64,000 nt of DNA from Fimbriimonadaceae bacterium. GTDB taxonomy: Bacteria > Armatimonadota > Fimbriimonadia > Fimbriimonadales > Fimbriimonadaceae. Shown in pieces: positions 14,224-22,321 of the stretch. The position numbers and the translations under genes are program-made. Location of the stretch: NCBI GenBank assembly GCA_019454145.1, contig CP075366.1:1963564-2027563 (forward strand), given 5' to 3'. Every line of letters begins with the position of its first letter. Within the stretch, counting starts at the first letter, position 1. Below the pieces are notes generated by a model. The model searched no databases. It saw only the letters and a list, made by a program, of their open reading frames with translations, and was not told the origin of the DNA.

Positions 14224-15894
14224 CTACATGATGGTCTTCCGTGCGCGATCTTTAACTTTTTCCTGACCAACTGGTCGAACGCTGACCACTGATTCCGGTT
14301 CGAAATCAAGAAGCTTCAGCCAATCCTCTACAGAATCCGATTTCGGGAAGATTTCGTTTTCCTTGAACTCGGCGTCTATCGCCAATTGCATGTCTTCCAA
14401 ATTCAAACCATGCTTCTTCTTCGGCTCGGCTATTGCACGTTTGATTGCGAAGTCCTTGGCTCGGTCGACTAATGATTTCAAAAGCGCCCCGCTGATCAGG
14501 TCGCTGAAGTAAAGGGTTTGCGAATTGCCGTCTCGCCCCAGGATTTCAAGAAACTCAGTTTCTTTGTTCTTTGTCCAAAGGCGGGCAACGGTGGCTTCGA
14601 TCAAAGCTTTGCGAGCACAAGCCGGGCCATCGTGTTCTTTGGCAAACTCGGCGTCAATGGGGATGGAATCATGTAGATAAATCCCAAGTATCTGCCGTGC
14701 CGCATCTTGGTTCGGACGTTTGATTCGGATTTTTCGGTCAATCCTTTCGGGTCGCAAAATCGCCGGATCAATGTAATCGGGCCGGTTCGAAGTGAGCACG
14801 ATCACCACATTCTCGAGTTCAACGAGGCCATCCATTTCGGCGCAGAACTGCGGCACCACCGTATTGCTGATGTTCAACCATCGGCCCGATGATCGGGTTC
14901 GCAAAACGGATTCCGCCTCGTCCAAAAAGATCACAACTATGCGCCCTTCGTTGGCCTGCTCGCGGGCGGTGGCAAAGATTTCCCGCACCATTCGCTCCGT
15001 TTCACCCAGCCACATATTCAAGATTTTCGGGCCGCTGATATGGAGGAAGCACTCTTTGGCATCCTGGTTTCCCGTGCGCTCACGATAATCCTTCGCAAGG
15101 TTGTAAGCAATTGCTTTGCCGAGCAGGGTTTTCCCGCAGCCGGGAGGGCCGTAAAGCAGAATTCCTTTTGGCGGACGCTTATCAAAAGATTTGTAAAGCT
15201 CAGGGTAGATCAGGGGTTGGGCAATAGATTCTTGGATGAGGTCAATCGCTTCTTGCTGACCGCCGACCGAGCTCCACGGAGTTTCCGGAATTTCTTCGAT
15301 AAAGTAATTTTGCGCTGATTGTTTGGGTAAGTGCTCAACCGCCACCTTCCCGCTCGGATCAAGAAGCACTTCGTCACCGGATTTGATCGAAATATCAACC
15401 AAATGGTGAGCACGGGGAATAATACGCCCTTGGTGGCCCTGGGGATCGGAACTCACGCGTAACCGACCATCTTCTAGCACCGCTGAAACCGAAATCACTT
15501 GGCCGGTGGTCGATTCAGGGGCGAGGCCAACAATCGCATAGGCTTCATTAAGTTTCACCCGGACTCCTGGGTGGAGCAGTTCTGTATCTAAACTCGGGTC
15601 AACGGTGGCAACAAACTCCTGGTCGCCTTGAAGGATTTGAACCAGACCATCATCCAGAAACCGCACGAACAAGCCGATCTTATTCGCCGGTTGGATTAGC
15701 TTTTGATATGCCTCTTCGTATTGCGCGAGCAGGGCCTCTTGGTCTTCGCTAGATTTACCGAGAGTCGTAACTTCTGTCTTTAGCGCAGAAAGATAGGCAC
15801 TGAGTTTTGCATCGGCGGATGGCAGAGCTTGTTCAATTCGGTCAGCAAGTTCTTGGATGCGGGCGAGCGACGATCCGCCGGAAGTCTGGGACAT
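14224..15894 (-). CDS. ARC/Mpa-type proteasomal AAA+ ATPase without the docking tail
   Basis: A 556-residue AAA+ ATPase of the ARC/Mpa group. It has an N-terminal coiled coil (about 5-75) and tandem OB-like domains (about 78-205). The AAA module carries Walker A GPPGCGKT at 249-256, pore loop SGPKILNMWLGE and Walker B VIFLDEAES. The C-terminal part contains LYFSDLISGALLKSLVDRAKD, as in Mpa. These rings unfold proteins for the 20S proteasome. The actinobacterial family ends in GQYL, needed for docking; this one ends RKTIM, so it lacks that tail. No proteasome, Pup, PafA or Dop gene is nearby. It may act alone or with another partner (inference). Confidence 0.88.
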   Translation of the reverse strand: MSQTSGGSSLARIQELADRIEQALPSADAKLSAYLSALKTEVTTLGKSSEDQEALLAQYEEAYQKLIQPANKIGLFVRFLDDGLVQILQGDQEFVATVDPSLDTELLHPGVRVKLNEAYAIVGLAPESTTGQVISVSAVLEDGRLRVSSDPQGHQGRIIPRAHHLVDISIKSGDEVLLDPSGKVAVEHLPKQSAQNYFIEEIPETPWSSVGGQQEAIDLIQESIAQPLIYPELYKSFDKRPPKGILLYGPPGCGKTLLGKAIAYNLAKDYRERTGNQDAKECFLHISGPKILNMWLGETERMVREIFATAREQANEGRIVVIFLDEAESVLRTRSSGRWLNISNTVVPQFCAEMDGLVELENVVIVLTSNRPDYIDPAILRPERIDRKIRIKRPNQDAARQILGIYLHDSIPIDAEFAKEHDGPACARKALIEATVARLWTKNKETEFLEILGRDGNSQTLYFSDLISGALLKSLVDRAKDFAIKRAIAEPKKKHGLNLEDMQLAIDAEFKENEIFPKSDSVEDWLKLLDFEPESVVSVRPVGQEKVKDRARKTIM

Positions 15895-15946: not shown

Positions 15947-17056
15947 CTAGCTGAGTAGGACACTTTCAAAAACCGCTTCAGTAATAGACTTGGAAATATC
16001 CTTTCCGATTGGTTTTGAAGAGCGAAATGGCTTACGTGAACCATCTTGATTTGCAAATCCCGTGACAACCACTCTTGGTTTTTCGTCTTCGTGGACAAAA
16101 TAGGTTTCAAGAACTTCGATTTCTACGCCCGAATCCGATTCACTGGCTTTCTGAGCCGCATGCTCGGCGATTTTTTGGAAATCGGGAATATGTTTTTGTA
16201 GCGGGGCTGGTTCTTGCTCAGGCTCAGAGATCACAGCACGTGTAAGCGCGCCTGGTTTATTGGCCAAACATTCTTGGCTGGCGAGGGCAATGAGGTTATC
16301 AAGAGTAGCGGCCCCGTGCTCGCGCCGATTTTCTAAACTCCGCTTACCGCCGGAAATACCATAGGAAAACCCAACTGGCACACGAACATCCTCGACTTTA
16401 AATTTTTTCGAAGCAATAGGTGCAAGTAAAGCGATTCCCTCTTCACGCGTGCGAGTTGTTCCAATAGCGAATTCGTCACCGCCGTAGCGTACAAGAACAT
16501 CTTTTTTAGGGTCAATCAAGCCGTCCAGCAACTTGCCGAATCCTTTGAGCACTCGGTCGCCAACTACGTGCCCGTATCGCTTGTTGTAGACGCCAAAATC
16601 GTTGAGGTCAAAAAAGATCACACAGATTTCTTGCCCGGCTTCCAGTTGCTCAACACCCCAGTCTCGCAGGCGATCACTCCAGCTCAGTCCGGTGAGGGGA
16701 TCGTAGCTGCGTCCGAGTTCGTCAATCAGCATCAACGCACTAAGAAGACCAGCATATTGATCTTCAAAAAACACGGCGAGGTAATCAGCTTGCTGGCCCA
16801 CAAAGTATTTTGCGGCTTGGCGAACCGGTTCTGTAAGTTGCAGAGCGGTAGATGTACCGCGCATGACCTCTGTCACGAGAACATCTGGTTCCGAGAGCAC
16901 AGCTGATTCAATCGTAACAAAACCTATGAATTCGCCATCGCGAATAACGGCAGCCGCCCCCGCATGCTCTTTTTGCATGAGAAGGAGTGCCGTACCCAGA
17001 TCAGCGTCAGGGGGAACGGTTAGACGGTTCAACTTAATGTCCGCTATTGTTCTCAA
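15947..17056 (-). CDS. CBS-pair plus GGDEF diguanylate cyclase
   Basis: A 369-residue cytoplasmic protein with a CBS pair (about 1-115), then a GGDEF domain (about 118-250) starting at YDPLTGLSW, with an intact RYGGDEF active site at about 190-196. This predicts cyclic di-GMP synthesis. The inhibitory I-site, normally RxxD five residues before GGDEF, reads PKKD here, so product inhibition may be lost. A C-terminal region of about 110 residues (about 260-369) is Glu-rich and unassigned. CBS pairs bind adenosyl nucleotides, so the cyclase may sense energy state (inference). It lies 52 bp upstream of the ARC-type ATPase gene on the same strand. Confidence 0.85.
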   Translation of the reverse strand: MRTIADIKLNRLTVPPDADLGTALLLMQKEHAGAAAVIRDGEFIGFVTIESAVLSEPDVLVTEVMRGTSTALQLTEPVRQAAKYFVGQQADYLAVFFEDQYAGLLSALMLIDELGRSYDPLTGLSWSDRLRDWGVEQLEAGQEICVIFFDLNDFGVYNKRYGHVVGDRVLKGFGKLLDGLIDPKKDVLVRYGGDEFAIGTTRTREEGIALLAPIASKKFKVEDVRVPVGFSYGISGGKRSLENRREHGAATLDNLIALASQECLANKPGALTRAVISEPEQEPAPLQKHIPDFQKIAEHAAQKASESDSGVEIEVLETYFVHEDEKPRVVVTGFANQDGSRKPFRSSKPIGKDISKSITEAVFESVLLS

Positions 17057-17119: not shown

Positions 17120-18130
17120 CTAATCATCAGAAAGTGCCTTCAAAACCGCGTTCTGGCAATCCGCTACTAACTGAGAGCAAGCTGGTTGATGCATAAGTGT
17201 CGCCGTTCTTTGAATCTGCCGATACACTTGCCCCGGCGTCATTCGCAAGAATGCCGCGACTTCATCTTCCCGCAATTCAATATCGTTGCGCAGGATGTAA
17301 GCACAGATTTCAGTTTCCGTGAGTCCGCACTCTGCGCAGGGCATGTATACGCTGTGAACCGCATCCCGCACGACGTCTCGTAAATCCCAGCCATTCTCCC
17401 CGATGAGGTACGGCATAAGGATTCCGCTTGCCGTACCAAGGTCAGAGAGAGCACTCCAATCGGTTTTTACGAGTCTCAGGCGAAGCAGTGCACCCCGAAT
17501 TGAACGACCATTGCCATTCATGTGCGTTGCTAAGAGGTGAGTGAGTTGCGGACTGAGCTTTATTCGCTCGGATTCTGCGATTTGCTTGACGATGAATTCC
17601 CGCTCAGGGCAAGTTGGCTCGTTGATAGACTCGATACGCCAGGAAAGCGGGCAGGCAAATATTCCTTGCGTGATCAGTTCGTGGCTTTGCCCCACCATGG
17701 TTACAAACGTTGGTCGCTTGAATCTGGCTCGCTGGTGAAGCCGCAGTTTGAGTTGGTGCTTTGCTCTCGGGTGGCGGAATACATCTTGAAGGTCATCGAG
17801 CAACAAAAACTGCTGAGCGCAAGCCTTTTCGCGCGAATTCGCCCATGTCAAAGCGTGTGCGACTGGAACGCTGATGCCGGTCGCTTCTGTGAGGCTCCGG
17901 CTGATTGACTGCAATAACTCTGATTTCCCCCATCCTGAAGGGCCGACAACCGCAGCAAATTGGTGAATTTCCTTAACAAATTGATCGGCTAATTTGATCG
18001 CTCGGCTATTGGATGGCAACGCGGCAAATTGAGATACAACCATTGCCGACGAGGCGCAAAGAACAGCACTCAAACGATTTTCACCCTGTTTTAATCCAGT
18101 GTTTTGCGTGCGAAAATCGGTGACTGCCAT
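17120..18130 (-). CDS. divergent DnaA-like AAA+ protein
   Basis: A 336-residue AAA+ protein. Walker A is GPSGWGKS at 63-70, and Walker B is LLLDDLQDVF at about 108-117, the order seen in DnaA (LLIDDIQF). A stretch WRIESINEP then matches the DnaA sensor-2 approach, and NGRSIRGALLRL mirrors the DnaA sensor-2 motif NVRELEGAL-RL. The C-terminus has two helix-turn-helix-like segments (TETEICAYIL, EDEVAAFLRMTPGQVYRQI) but lacks the DHTTV-type DNA signature of DnaA domain IV. It is either a DnaA paralogue or an Hda-like regulator. No dnaN or DnaA-box cluster is seen beside it. It lies 63 bp upstream of the CBS-GGDEF gene. Confidence 0.65.
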   Translation of the reverse strand: MAVTDFRTQNTGLKQGENRLSAVLCASSAMVVSQFAALPSNSRAIKLADQFVKEIHQFAAVVGPSGWGKSELLQSISRSLTEATGISVPVAHALTWANSREKACAQQFLLLDDLQDVFRHPRAKHQLKLRLHQRARFKRPTFVTMVGQSHELITQGIFACPLSWRIESINEPTCPEREFIVKQIAESERIKLSPQLTHLLATHMNGNGRSIRGALLRLRLVKTDWSALSDLGTASGILMPYLIGENGWDLRDVVRDAVHSVYMPCAECGLTETEICAYILRNDIELREDEVAAFLRMTPGQVYRQIQRTATLMHQPACSQLVADCQNAVLKALSDD

Positions 18131-18325: not shown

Positions 18326-19552
18326 TTAGTGCTTGATTTTCTCCCAGTACTTGGAAAAATCAAATGTCGGGCTGTGTTGCAAGTTGTGGCACTTTGCACA
18401 AGCTTCTTTTCCGAGCGTTGGCATCTTGGCTTCTTTCGGTTTGAGGGTATGGTTTCGCCCTGCCCCGTGGCAAGATTCACAGCCGACGTCGGTGAATTGG
18501 GGAGTTTTTTCCTTAACAATAAATCCGTTGGTGCTTTCGATTCCCACAACGTGGCAACTCACGCAATCGGGGTCGGCATCATGCTTATCTGATTCAAGTG
18601 TAGCAAAGGCTTTAGCGTGCTTTGACCCTTTCCAAATCTTGTATTCGGCTTCATGGCAAGAACGGCAAGCTTCGGTGCCTGCGTATACAACATCAGACAC
18701 TTTGGGCATCATTTCAACCAGCTTTTCGCTCCGAACGCGATCAAGGTACCGGTTGTAGTAACGGGAAACATCAGCATGGTCGTGCACATCTGGCCCGAGC
18801 GAATTTATGACCGGTGATTCAAATCTTTCGCCTGAAAAAGTGATTGAAGTCACATACTGGCCTTGCGGCCCCGGCGTAAGTAACCAAGTTTCGCCTATCC
18901 GGTCTTCACCCGTTCGAGGCGCGCTTTTTGAAGCGTAGATAATCACGTCTAGCTGAGGAACTGACTCGGCGATCTGTATGGCAATGTCGCGGTCAAAGTT
19001 AGTGATGTAGATAGAGGGAACCGATCGTTCTTTGGCTGTTTGCACGAGCTCACGAACTCTGGAAATCGCGTTGAGCTGAGTGAACGAGGGGCTTGTACCG
19101 TCGGCATATACGGCGCATTTTGGGCTTACAAACACACTTGAATTCTCTGTGCCGAGAATGGAAGTGTTCGAAAGTCGCTCAACGGCGGCGATTCCTGGTT
19201 CGCCCAAAATTAAATCCTTGGAAGTGAGTGCAAGCACATCAACCTTCATTGCTTTTAGCGATTCAGCAAGGGTTTCGGCTTTGAGCTCGGATTGCCGACC
19301 AGGAACCCCTACAATTGGGCCAGTTTCAATAATAAATGACGCTTGTTGAGCTAACTCCTCGGTTTTTGTGGCTCGCCGGCGAATACCGCCCGCCATTGGC
19401 TTAGTGCAGCCGCAAGGAGAAAGATATCCGGCAGTATTGCCACCAATAATCAAAGTCCAGCTTGTCGATTCTTCTTGTTTGGCAATCGCACCCATGATGA
19501 ACGGCAACAGAGCCGTTCCCCAAAGCGCGACTTTCAGGAATCTAGGGCACAT
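18326..19552 (-). CDS. secreted tetraheme cytochrome c with nucleotidase-like N-terminal domain
   Basis: A 408-residue exported protein. A signal anchor (about 6-24) is followed by an N-terminal domain with GYLSPCGCTKPMAGGIRRR that resembles the UshA/5'-nucleotidase-like part of cytochrome c-554-type proteins. Four CxxCH haem motifs follow (CRSCH, CVSCH, CESCH, CAKCH at about residues 295, 329, 357, 384). ATG 19552 is chosen because the signal sequence begins there; it overlaps the upstream DUF1573 gene by 11 bp, so the two are coupled. It probably acts in periplasmic electron transfer; donor and acceptor are unknown. Confidence 0.85.
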   Translation of the reverse strand: MCPRFLKVALWGTALLPFIMGAIAKQEESTSWTLIIGGNTAGYLSPCGCTKPMAGGIRRRATKTEELAQQASFIIETGPIVGVPGRQSELKAETLAESLKAMKVDVLALTSKDLILGEPGIAAVERLSNTSILGTENSSVFVSPKCAVYADGTSPSFTQLNAISRVRELVQTAKERSVPSIYITNFDRDIAIQIAESVPQLDVIIYASKSAPRTGEDRIGETWLLTPGPQGQYVTSITFSGERFESPVINSLGPDVHDHADVSRYYNRYLDRVRSEKLVEMMPKVSDVVYAGTEACRSCHEAEYKIWKGSKHAKAFATLESDKHDADPDCVSCHVVGIESTNGFIVKEKTPQFTDVGCESCHGAGRNHTLKPKEAKMPTLGKEACAKCHNLQHSPTFDFSKYWEKIKH

Positions 19553-21155
19553 AACCTTGAACGGGAACAACGATTTGCGGAGAATCCGGATCGTCGGTTT
19601 TGATAAGGAGGCTCGCAATCACGGTGCCGGTTCCAGGCTTGGCATTGAGTTCAACGGAAAGCTTGTATTCACCTACACCGAGCTTCTCAGTTTTAGCAGT
19701 CAGGTAAGTTTCCGAAGACTTAATTTCCAATATTTTGAAATCTTTTCCTGTTCCATTAATTGTTGCCCAGGCTCGGGCAATTCCACCCTTCACATCACCA
19801 AAATAAATTGTTTGTGGAGAGACGGCTATTCCTCTTTGAACATAGAAATTTGCGCCAAGTAAGGGAAATATTTTGTTATCTGTTTGGATAAGCAAAGCCG
19901 CCAAAATTCGGCCCTGCACAGTACCGGGGCTAAGCAATACATCAATTTTGTAGCCTTTTCTGGGCTTAGCTGGCTCGTTCCACAATGGGTCAGCGAGGGA
20001 TCCCTCCCAAGGTGAGATACTTGTCACTCCAGTCAAACCTGAAACACTTGCCCGCAAGGGCTTCATTTCAATCGAATCTGGCATAAAGAGATAGTAGGTG
20101 AGTTTCGCACCACTTTCACCGAACATCACCGTGTCACTTTTTTCTCCAGTGATCAGGCGGTAAGCAGGGGTGATATTCCCGACGACTCCAACTCTTGTAG
20201 TCGGATGCTCAGGGTCGTTGGTGTAAATAAACAAACCTTTGTCTTGAGGCCCCTGGAAGTCGGCCGTGCTCATGTAAATATTCACTAATGTTGTGGATTC
20301 AGGCGCGACCACAGGATCGTAATTGATGATAAAACACGAGCAATCCGGTCTAATAGAAAATTGCATGGGTGCTTTCCCCCTGTTTACAATTTGAATTTGA
20401 AACTGCTGGGGTTCGCCTTGAACAACCGTATTAAAGTTAATTTGATTTTGATCAATAAAGAACGATGGAAAATTTGCTGCTAGCTTCTTTTTGTTTTTTG
20501 CTGCGGCAACAAGCTTATCTGCAATCTGGACGTTATTCTTTGCAAGCACCAAGGAAAGGCCATCTATTTTTGGCATTGAGCCTCCCACTCCATCTATCCG
20601 GAACATCGTACTGCCTGGTTTTGGCTGCCGTTCGAGTCCAAGGTAGGAACCAATAACAAAACTAATCTCGTTTTCGTAGACAGGCGCTTCAATTTCGAGC
20701 TTAAGATCAGTTCGAATAGTGGATACGACAGCTTCAATGGTCGGCTCGCTGGGATCAGGGCTTTCAAAAAGAACCAGCGTTTTTGGTACTCCGACAGCGG
20801 TTTGCTCTAATTCTTTTACGAACGTTATGAGAACGTTGGGCTTGTCGCTTTCCGTAATTTTCAACTCAGGCAGCTCATGCTTCCAGTTTGCAATAGCTTT
20901 GTCTAAAGCATTTTTTGCGATGACTTGGTTGATTTTCGAGAGTTTGCCAGTATCAATTTTGATCGTAAATTCATATTTGGGAAGAGATTTAGCCCGTTGT
21001 GTAGCTTGCGCAAATTCGCCAGCCTCAAGAAACTCGGCAACTTCGCGCACGGATTTTTGAAAAAATGGTGACGAACCCACTGGTGGAGTTGGAGCAGCCT
21101 CAATTTGAGCCGATTGGGCAACGGCAACCATCATTCCAAGTGCAAGCAAACTCAT
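19542..21155 (-). CDS. secreted DUF1573-containing protein
   Basis: A 537-residue exported protein with an Ala-rich N-terminal signal (about 1-16). An N-terminal half follows with no motif I recognise. A DUF1573-type Ig-like domain (about 245-335) holds a characteristic PDCSCF after NRGKAPMQF and closes with YTNDPEHPTT. A second similar beta domain near the C-terminus ends IKTDDPDSPQIVVP. DUF1573 proteins are common in Bacteroidetes and Planctomycetes next to cytochromes. Its stop overlaps the tetraheme cytochrome start, so the two probably work together at the periplasmic face. Biochemical role unknown. Confidence 0.8.
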   Translation of the reverse strand: MSLLALGMMVAVAQSAQIEAAPTPPVGSSPFFQKSVREVAEFLEAGEFAQATQRAKSLPKYEFTIKIDTGKLSKINQVIAKNALDKAIANWKHELPELKITESDKPNVLITFVKELEQTAVGVPKTLVLFESPDPSEPTIEAVVSTIRTDLKLEIEAPVYENEISFVIGSYLGLERQPKPGSTMFRIDGVGGSMPKIDGLSLVLAKNNVQIADKLVAAAKNKKKLAANFPSFFIDQNQINFNTVVQGEPQQFQIQIVNRGKAPMQFSIRPDCSCFIINYDPVVAPESTTLVNIYMSTADFQGPQDKGLFIYTNDPEHPTTRVGVVGNITPAYRLITGEKSDTVMFGESGAKLTYYLFMPDSIEMKPLRASVSGLTGVTSISPWEGSLADPLWNEPAKPRKGYKIDVLLSPGTVQGRILAALLIQTDNKIFPLLGANFYVQRGIAVSPQTIYFGDVKGGIARAWATINGTGKDFKILEIKSSETYLTAKTEKLGVGEYKLSVELNAKPGTGTVIASLLIKTDDPDSPQIVVPVQGYVP

Positions 21156-21204
21156 TTTGAATCTCTGTTATTTGACGTATCAAATGCGGCAAGTGGTCGG
21201 AGGA

Positions 21205-22321
21205 CTACTCAATAAACGTGTCCTCATTCGGCGGACGCTTCAAATAAGCTTCGATAAAGCTATCGATTTCTCCATCCATAACGGCTACAACGTTTCCGGT
21301 TTCATGTCCGGTTCGGTGATCCTTCACCATTGTGTATGGCTGCATCACATAGCTTCTAATCTGTCGGCCCCATTCCGCCGGGCCAATGTCTCCCTTGATG
21401 GCATTAGCTTTGGCGAGGTCGGCTTCTCGTTGCAAAACGGCTAATCGCGAGGCAAGCATTTTGTAAACCGAAGCGCGGTTTTTATGCTGACTGCGTTCGT
21501 TTTGGCATTGAACGACGATGCCAGTTGGGATGTGCGTCAGGCGGACTGCCGATTCCGTTTTGTTGACGTGCTGACCACCTGCACCCGATGCTCGAAGGGT
21601 TTCCTCCTTGACATCATCCGGATTGATCTCAACTTCTGTTTCTTCCATTTCTGGGAGAACTTCAATTCGGCAGAAAGAAGTATGCCGGCGAGCATTGGAG
21701 TCAAAGGGAGAAATCCGAACAAGTCGATGCACTCCTCCTTCCGACTTCAGATACCCGTATGCATTTGTGCCAGTGACTTCAAAAGTGACGTTGCGGTAAC
21801 CAGTGACATCGCCAGGAGTTTCTGAGACGATTTCGAGCTTAAAACCTTTAATCTGCGCCCAGCGCATGTACATACGGAAAAGGATTGAAGCCCAGTCACA
21901 TGCTTCCGAGCCGCCTGCCCCGGCACTGATTTCAACTAGCGCATTCCGGTCATCGTATTCTCCGCTGAGCAAGGTTTGGAGCTCGTACGAATCTAAATCG
22001 GCAAGAAATGAAATAGCTTGGGAATCCGCTTCTTGTTCGAGATCGGCATCCGGCTCAGCGCGGATCATCTCGTAAAAGTCGTGGATGTTGTTAAGCCGTT
22101 CATCCAATTGCAAAAATGGATGAATGATTCCTTTGGTTCGGGAGAGTTTCCGCAGATGAGTTTGCGCGGCTTGCGGATCGTCCCAAAAATTCGATTGTGC
22201 TGCGGCTGCTTCTAGTTCACCGAGCTGCTGTTGTAGTCGAGGCAGGTCAAAGATGCCCCCGAATAGCGTCCAGGCGAGCGCGAGCCTCGGACAGCGCTTG
22301 ATGCTGCTCATGAGTCAACAT
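21205..22321 (-). CDS. prfB: peptide chain release factor 2, with programmed +1 frameshift
   Basis: The class I release factor for UGA/UAA. The zero frame starts at ATG 22321 and runs 24 codons ([20 protein letters not shown]...) to an in-frame TGA at 22249-22247. After a +1 shift it continues DLPRLQQQ to the end. The body carries the catalytic [16 protein letters not shown] and [11 protein letters not shown] motifs. Total length is 371 residues, normal for RF2. The single-frame reading from ATG 22311 would replace the true N-terminus with an unrelated sequence. RF2 autoregulates through this shift. Confidence 0.95.
22246..22261 (-). promoter_or_regulatory. RF2 +1 frameshift site
   Basis: On the minus strand: CGGGGG, CAT, CTT, TGA, C. 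A Shine-Dalgarno-like CGGGGG stands three bases before CTT, and UGA is followed by C (poor termination). This is the classic RF2 arrangement: slow termination when RF2 is scarce lets the ribosome slip from CUU to UUU and skip one base. Confidence 0.93.

Follow-up and report, generated by a model that had tools for sequence, protein, structure and literature searches.

Results

The gene at 17120-18130 of the window, by which we mean the whole 64,000-nucleotide stretch of DNA analysed here, is a real gene and, as its family relationships indicate, a DnaA-derived paralogue. DnaA is the protein that starts bacterial DNA replication, and the gene is assigned as a paralogue because an ordinary dnaA is present 165 kb away in the same genome, the window being part of a complete 2.76 Mb chromosome. 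A first-pass annotation of the letters had suggested a regulatory DnaA-like paralogue, and this suggestion gained support from the DnaA matches of all 38 orthologues analysed and from the canonical dnaA elsewhere in the genome. In our best explanation, which taken as a whole falls a little short of an even chance, the gene is a single-copy, vertically inherited descendant of DnaA domains III and IV that belongs to the order around Fimbriimonadaceae (Armatimonadota) and has turned regulator, and its product would be a regulatory ATPase of the DnaA family whose gene is expressed together with that of a predicted diguanylate cyclase. The features of the gene and its neighbours are collected in Table 1.

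Table 1. Positions (in the window) of the paralogue gene, its predicted elements and the adjoining genes.
Feature	Position	Strand	Basis or remark
DnaA-paralogue gene	17120..18130	-	336 aa, ATG start; ORF list
N-terminal RLSAVL, one form of the recurring RLSxVL(F) motif	18059..18076	-	motif in 13/38 members
DnaA-type AAA+ domain, residues about 33-232	17435..18034	-	NCBIfam DnaA and Hda matches, best PDB match to DnaA, hhalign (values in text)
Walker A GPSGWGKS (63-70)	17921..17944	-	Lys in 37/38 members, Arg in the remaining one
Walker B LLLDD (109-113)	17792..17806	-	38/38 acidic at the first position (D in 35, E in 3); 30/38 with D at the second
IFACPLSWR (157-165), place of DnaA box VII and arginine finger	17636..17662	-	joint alignment
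Sensor 2 GNGRSIRGAL (206-215)	17486..17515	-	R209 aligns with E. coli R334; Arg in 30/38
C-terminal domain, putative DnaA domain IV remnant	17123..17407	-	full-length profile alignments; DHTT and basic loop lost
CBS + GGDEF protein, intact RYGGDEF, downstream partner	15947..17056	-	Pfam
Mpa/ARC-type proteasome ATPase, often next in the gene run	14224..15894	-	TIGR03689, 460.9 bits, just below the cutoff of 504.75
UshA-like (seleno)protein with cytochrome c554-type haem motifs, conserved upstream gene	18326-19618	-	
DUF1573/OS_HP2 protein, conserved upstream gene	19542-21155	-	
prfB, conserved upstream gene	21205-22311	-	

Profile comparisons with DnaA and related ATPases

Taken alone, the window protein scored below the cutoffs of the curated models for both DnaA (28.1 bits; cutoff 343.9) and Hda (29.8 bits; cutoff 194.8). 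A profile drawn from an alignment of 38 orthologues found its best PDB match in T. maritima DnaA 2z4r (E = 6.5e-18), spanning profile positions 22-325 and chain residues 101-436, i.e., domain III and domain IV. Behind 2z4r came further DnaA structures and Hda. Upon aligning the same profile by hhalign with one built from 23 canonical DnaAs from the paralogue's order, we obtained 305 collinear columns at a probability of 99.6%. The NCBIfam DnaA family (TIGR00362) was matched by 38/38 members, Hda by 35/38 and IstB by 9/38, with a best E among members of 1.1e-15 for DnaA vs 5.4e-6 for IstB, and no MoxR family was among the matches listed for the 38 members. An IstB or MoxR identity, raised early on as the competing assignment, was rejected, the DnaA matches being far stronger. 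Structure prediction from an alignment of the window protein and one 98% identical copy gave a pLDDT of 38 and no meaningful model.

DnaC and DnaI are close relatives of DnaA, and they share with IstB and the paralogue an initiator/loader clade of AAA+ ATPases. Weak matches of the paralogue to DnaI, to DnaC-like structures and to phrogs could point to a role in helicase loading or replication restart like that of DnaC/DnaI, which we nonetheless consider very unlikely. No loader is missing, as DciA occurs in each of the 16 genomes tested; matches to DnaC/DnaI and IstB were much weaker than those to DnaA, and these families have no domain IV; and the gene is missing from family f2 and from reduced genomes, which still must load their helicase.

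A MuB-like transposition ATPase (phrog_296), likewise an AAA+ protein, showed weak similarity in 16/38 members, but its best E of 1.4e-7 falls behind that of DnaA, and the paralogue is a stable chromosomal gene. A mobile or phage origin was rejected because viral contigs and plasmids held no relatives of the gene and the order of its neighbourhood is kept. A defence system was likewise discarded, as PADLOC gave weak ATPase matches only.

Retained and lost elements of DnaA

We counted conserved elements in a joint alignment of the 38 members with canonical DnaA, E. coli DnaA and E. coli Hda, taking the roles of R285, R281, AID, the H and B motifs and sensor 2 from PMC5742627. The Walker B and sensor-2 stretches that had first drawn attention as DnaA-like are both present and align to their DnaA counterparts (LLLDDLQDV, residues 109-117, and NGRSIRGALLRL, residues 207-218), and the B-motif Arg/Lys is kept in 38/38 members. 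On sequence grounds, the paralogue retains the nucleotide-binding site of the DnaA AAA+ core (Walker A, Walker B and sensor 2) and an alignment that runs through domain IV, but domain I, the H-motif helices for ssDNA binding, AID-1, AID-2, the DnaA-type (SRF) arginine-finger motif, the basic loop and DHTT are gone. These losses take in the parts with which DnaA recruits helicase, binds ssDNA and reads DnaA boxes. About 30 residues (~30) lie ahead of the AAA+ domain in the window protein, and the DnaA alignment begins at domain III. In the paralogues, 36-45 residues (mode 43) separate Walker A from Walker B, compared with 46 in E. coli Hda and a constant 57 across the canonical DnaAs checked; the H-motif (ssDNA) segment between them is shortened, and the H-motif position is not conserved.

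The column of the arginine finger (R285, SRF motif) is a gap in 38/38 members, hhalign likewise sets a 4-residue gap opposite RSRF, and the window protein has no Arg or Lys among the six residues preceding the invariant Trp164. Read from these alignments, the arginine finger has been lost in the paralogue family; an Arg that stands two residues ahead of the invariant Trp in 21/38 members, and is absent in the window protein, might be a shifted finger. A diverged initiator, the other possibility put forward in the first-pass annotation, found no support: the paralogue is without domain I, the ssDNA-binding insert, the arginine finger and the residues that recognise DnaA boxes. It also differs from DnaA in not being the initiator of its genome.

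The best known DnaA paralogues that regulate initiation are the Hda proteins of proteobacteria, and the same features bear on whether the paralogue is a true functional Hda, which with the sliding clamp would stimulate DnaA ATP hydrolysis after initiation (RIDA). Hda is the second-best family, and its role would be unfilled in the 61 genomes of the class, which have no other Hda above cutoff. Like Hda and HdaA, the paralogue would be a DnaA-derived regulator without domain I and with a short Walker A-B segment. It also has, in 2/38 members (G005 and G006), a rare QLSLPI at the aligned place of the N-terminal motif, which is that of the Hda clamp motif, resembling the QLSLPL near the N-terminus of E. 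coli Hda (LNTPAQLSLPLYLP). The other members have RLSxVL or no motif at this place, and the RLSxVL(F) count in Table 1 compares with 0.27 expected from shuffles (maximum 3). We nevertheless regard a functional Hda as quite unlikely, given the score far below the Hda cutoff (29.8 vs 194.8 bits), with 0/61 class genomes having an Hda match above it, and given that Hda keeps both its clamp motif and its arginine finger (R153, aligned with DnaA R285). The finger is absent from the window protein, and the clamp motif appears to be missing from most members, among them G003 and G007 of the window's own genus; the paralogue moreover has a remnant of domain IV, a domain not found in Hda. The earlier label "Hda-like" can hence be kept in a loose sense, for the shortened Walker A-B segment and the absence of domain I, and fails for the domain IV remnant, the arginine finger and, apparently, in most members the clamp motif. 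Hda itself is listed in alpha-, beta- and gammaproteobacteria only (PMC3290774).

An acidic C-terminal domain

The two C-terminal helix-turn-helix segments singled out in the original reading of the sequence make up the last ~100 residues, which are in register with DnaA domain IV in the whole-protein comparison and weakly similar to it alone. By itself, the C-terminal domain aligned with DnaA domain IV at an hhalign probability of 32%, in the expected register, and gave no credible PDB match; its descent from domain IV therefore rests on collinearity. The D-H of the DHTT signature was found at the aligned positions in 0/38 members, which agrees with the absence of DHTTV noted at the outset, and the basic-loop R399 column has Arg in 5/38. 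The last 95 residues of the window protein have a net charge of -7 and a pI of 4.6, in contrast to canonical DnaA, where the C-terminal domain has a median pI of 9.4 and a positive net charge in 23/23. Net charge is zero or negative in 35/38 paralogues, and the three with a basic domain, all from family f5, could still bind DNA.

Such members, together with HTH_23 and Sigma70_r4_2 matches (2 members each) and the conserved neighbourhood, would fit a local transcription regulator, whose C-terminal helix-turn-helix would sit on DNA and whose AAA+ domain would act as a nucleotide-dependent switch on the genes nearby. We judge this unlikely, as the C-terminal domain is acidic in the window protein and in nearly all f1 members and has lost the residues with which domain IV contacts DNA.

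Distribution and selection

Across 291 Armatimonadota genomes, we found orthologues in 88, with strong matches confined to one order. By family, the gene was present in 80/85 genomes of f1, 7/8 of f5 and 1/1 of f3, and was not found in f2 (0/18 genomes) or f4 (0/1). Within f1, its absence in G010 is a matter of a contig end, where the C-terminal piece is still there, and two more of the f1 genomes that lack it measure 1.5 Mb. As far as checked, the best matches beyond this order lay in open frames of canonical DnaA length. A proposed f2 relative in G051 turned out to be an ABC-transporter ATPase. As f1 and f5 form one group in the DnaA tree, separate from f2 and f3 (97/97), and the paralogue is present in f3, its absence from f2 may reflect either loss in f2 or an independent history. 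dN/dS in close pairs was 0.012 (G000/G004) and 0.045, and that of dnaA 0.014, indicating that the paralogue is under purifying selection about as strong as that on dnaA; such low values argue that the gene is functional.

Gene neighbourhood and the CBS-GGDEF partner

In 20 larger loci, the recurring gene order was prfB, the DUF1573 protein, the UshA-like/cytochrome protein, the paralogue, the CBS-GGDEF protein and the Mpa/ARC ATPase. The order of the upstream genes (18326..22311) was conserved in 14-15/20 of these loci, and the Mpa/ARC ATPase (gene-order cluster c5) occurred in 13/20. The paralogue and the GGDEF gene form the tightest pair of the neighbourhood: among the 76 genomes having both, 71 carry the GGDEF gene immediately downstream of the paralogue in the same orientation, at a median gap of 91 bp as measured between profile edges, and the pair is kept in f5 and f3 despite different upstream genes. 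Because CBS and GGDEF domains occur in all 17 GGDEF-protein members (Pfam) and the window copy has RYGGDEF, the partner is predicted to be an active diguanylate cyclase, and the 11 GGDEF and 4 PilZ matches found genome-wide make c-di-GMP signalling plausible. The two proteins are not mutually required everywhere, since 12 genomes, 11 of them from one genus, hold the paralogue without a match to the CBS-GGDEF family, and nearly all 18 f2 genomes have the GGDEF gene and no paralogue.

The same adjacency, to the GGDEF gene and often also to the Mpa/ARC ATPase, would suit an AAA+ protein that assists the products of the nearby c-di-GMP, redox or proteasome genes and has lost its link to replication. 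We hold this to be rather unlikely, as it is drawn from the neighbourhood alone and one genus retains the paralogue without the GGDEF gene.

Two further observations concern the neighbouring genes. Many CBS-GGDEF members have a long, variable C-terminal part without a Pfam match, and the family is conserved through the order. At prfB (22240-22320, reverse strand), a short frame runs from an ATG at 22320 to ...CGG GGG CAT CTT TGA C, after which the long ORF continues in a shifted frame, apparently the programmed +1 frameshift that is classic for RF2.

Canonical dnaA and the origin

A search for a canonical dnaA in the same genome, also advised in the first-pass annotation, located it outside the window at G000:C1 about 2146805-2147740, on the basis of a single Bac_DnaA match (204.5 bits) sharing its frame with a single Bac_DnaA_C match. 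The window itself holds no dnaA, which bears out the remark that the rpmH group has none beside it. Canonical dnaA was found in 28/28 genomes checked, and its distance from the paralogue on a shared contig varies from about 27 kb to about 1 Mb.

DnaA-box searches of the window, of the 10 kb around dnaA and of the whole genome did not locate oriC: near-matches in the window were close to expectation (15 vs 10.3 expected), no box with up to 1 mismatch was found around dnaA (G000:C1:2142000-2152000), and closely spaced same-orientation pairs of exact boxes were absent genome-wide. The location of oriC or its box sequence may be unusual. Fimbriimonas ginsengisoli, of the same class, likewise has a scattered dnaA cluster and very few DnaA boxes (PMC4072686).

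In the genus-mate G006, a second Bac_DnaA_C match (G006:C1:595155-595325; 32.1 bits, just above cutoff) lies in a 172-aa frame, possibly a stand-alone DnaA domain IV protein.

Discussion

If the paralogue is a regulatory DnaA-family ATPase, it would bind ATP but could not build a DnaA-type filament or open an origin. Its most likely action would be to dock on DnaA, or on itself, via the retained ATP face, which could accept the arginine finger of DnaA while giving none back. An intact ATP face without an arginine finger suggests a one-sided partner able to end a head-to-tail DnaA filament, and DnaA would then be capped or sequestered in a nucleotide-dependent manner. We favour such capping or sequestration as the putative mechanism. 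The co-expressed CBS-GGDEF protein would couple this control of DnaA to energy charge and c-di-GMP. The more specific proposal of an undescribed class of anti-initiators, which would cap DnaA filaments and be tied to c-di-GMP via the operon partner, as a brake in Armatimonadota that is neither Hda nor YabA nor SirA, strikes us as somewhat unlikely.

Replication control has, to our knowledge, been little studied in Armatimonadota, and our searches of the open-access literature turned up no DnaA paralogue described for the phylum. The setting is one in which dnaA is unlinked from rpmH. A conserved single-copy offshoot of DnaA that keeps the ATP site and has lost the filament-forming and DNA-reading parts suggests that replication control may have evolved independently here, and its steady pairing with a predicted diguanylate cyclase makes a connection between a second messenger and an ATPase of the initiator family open to direct testing.
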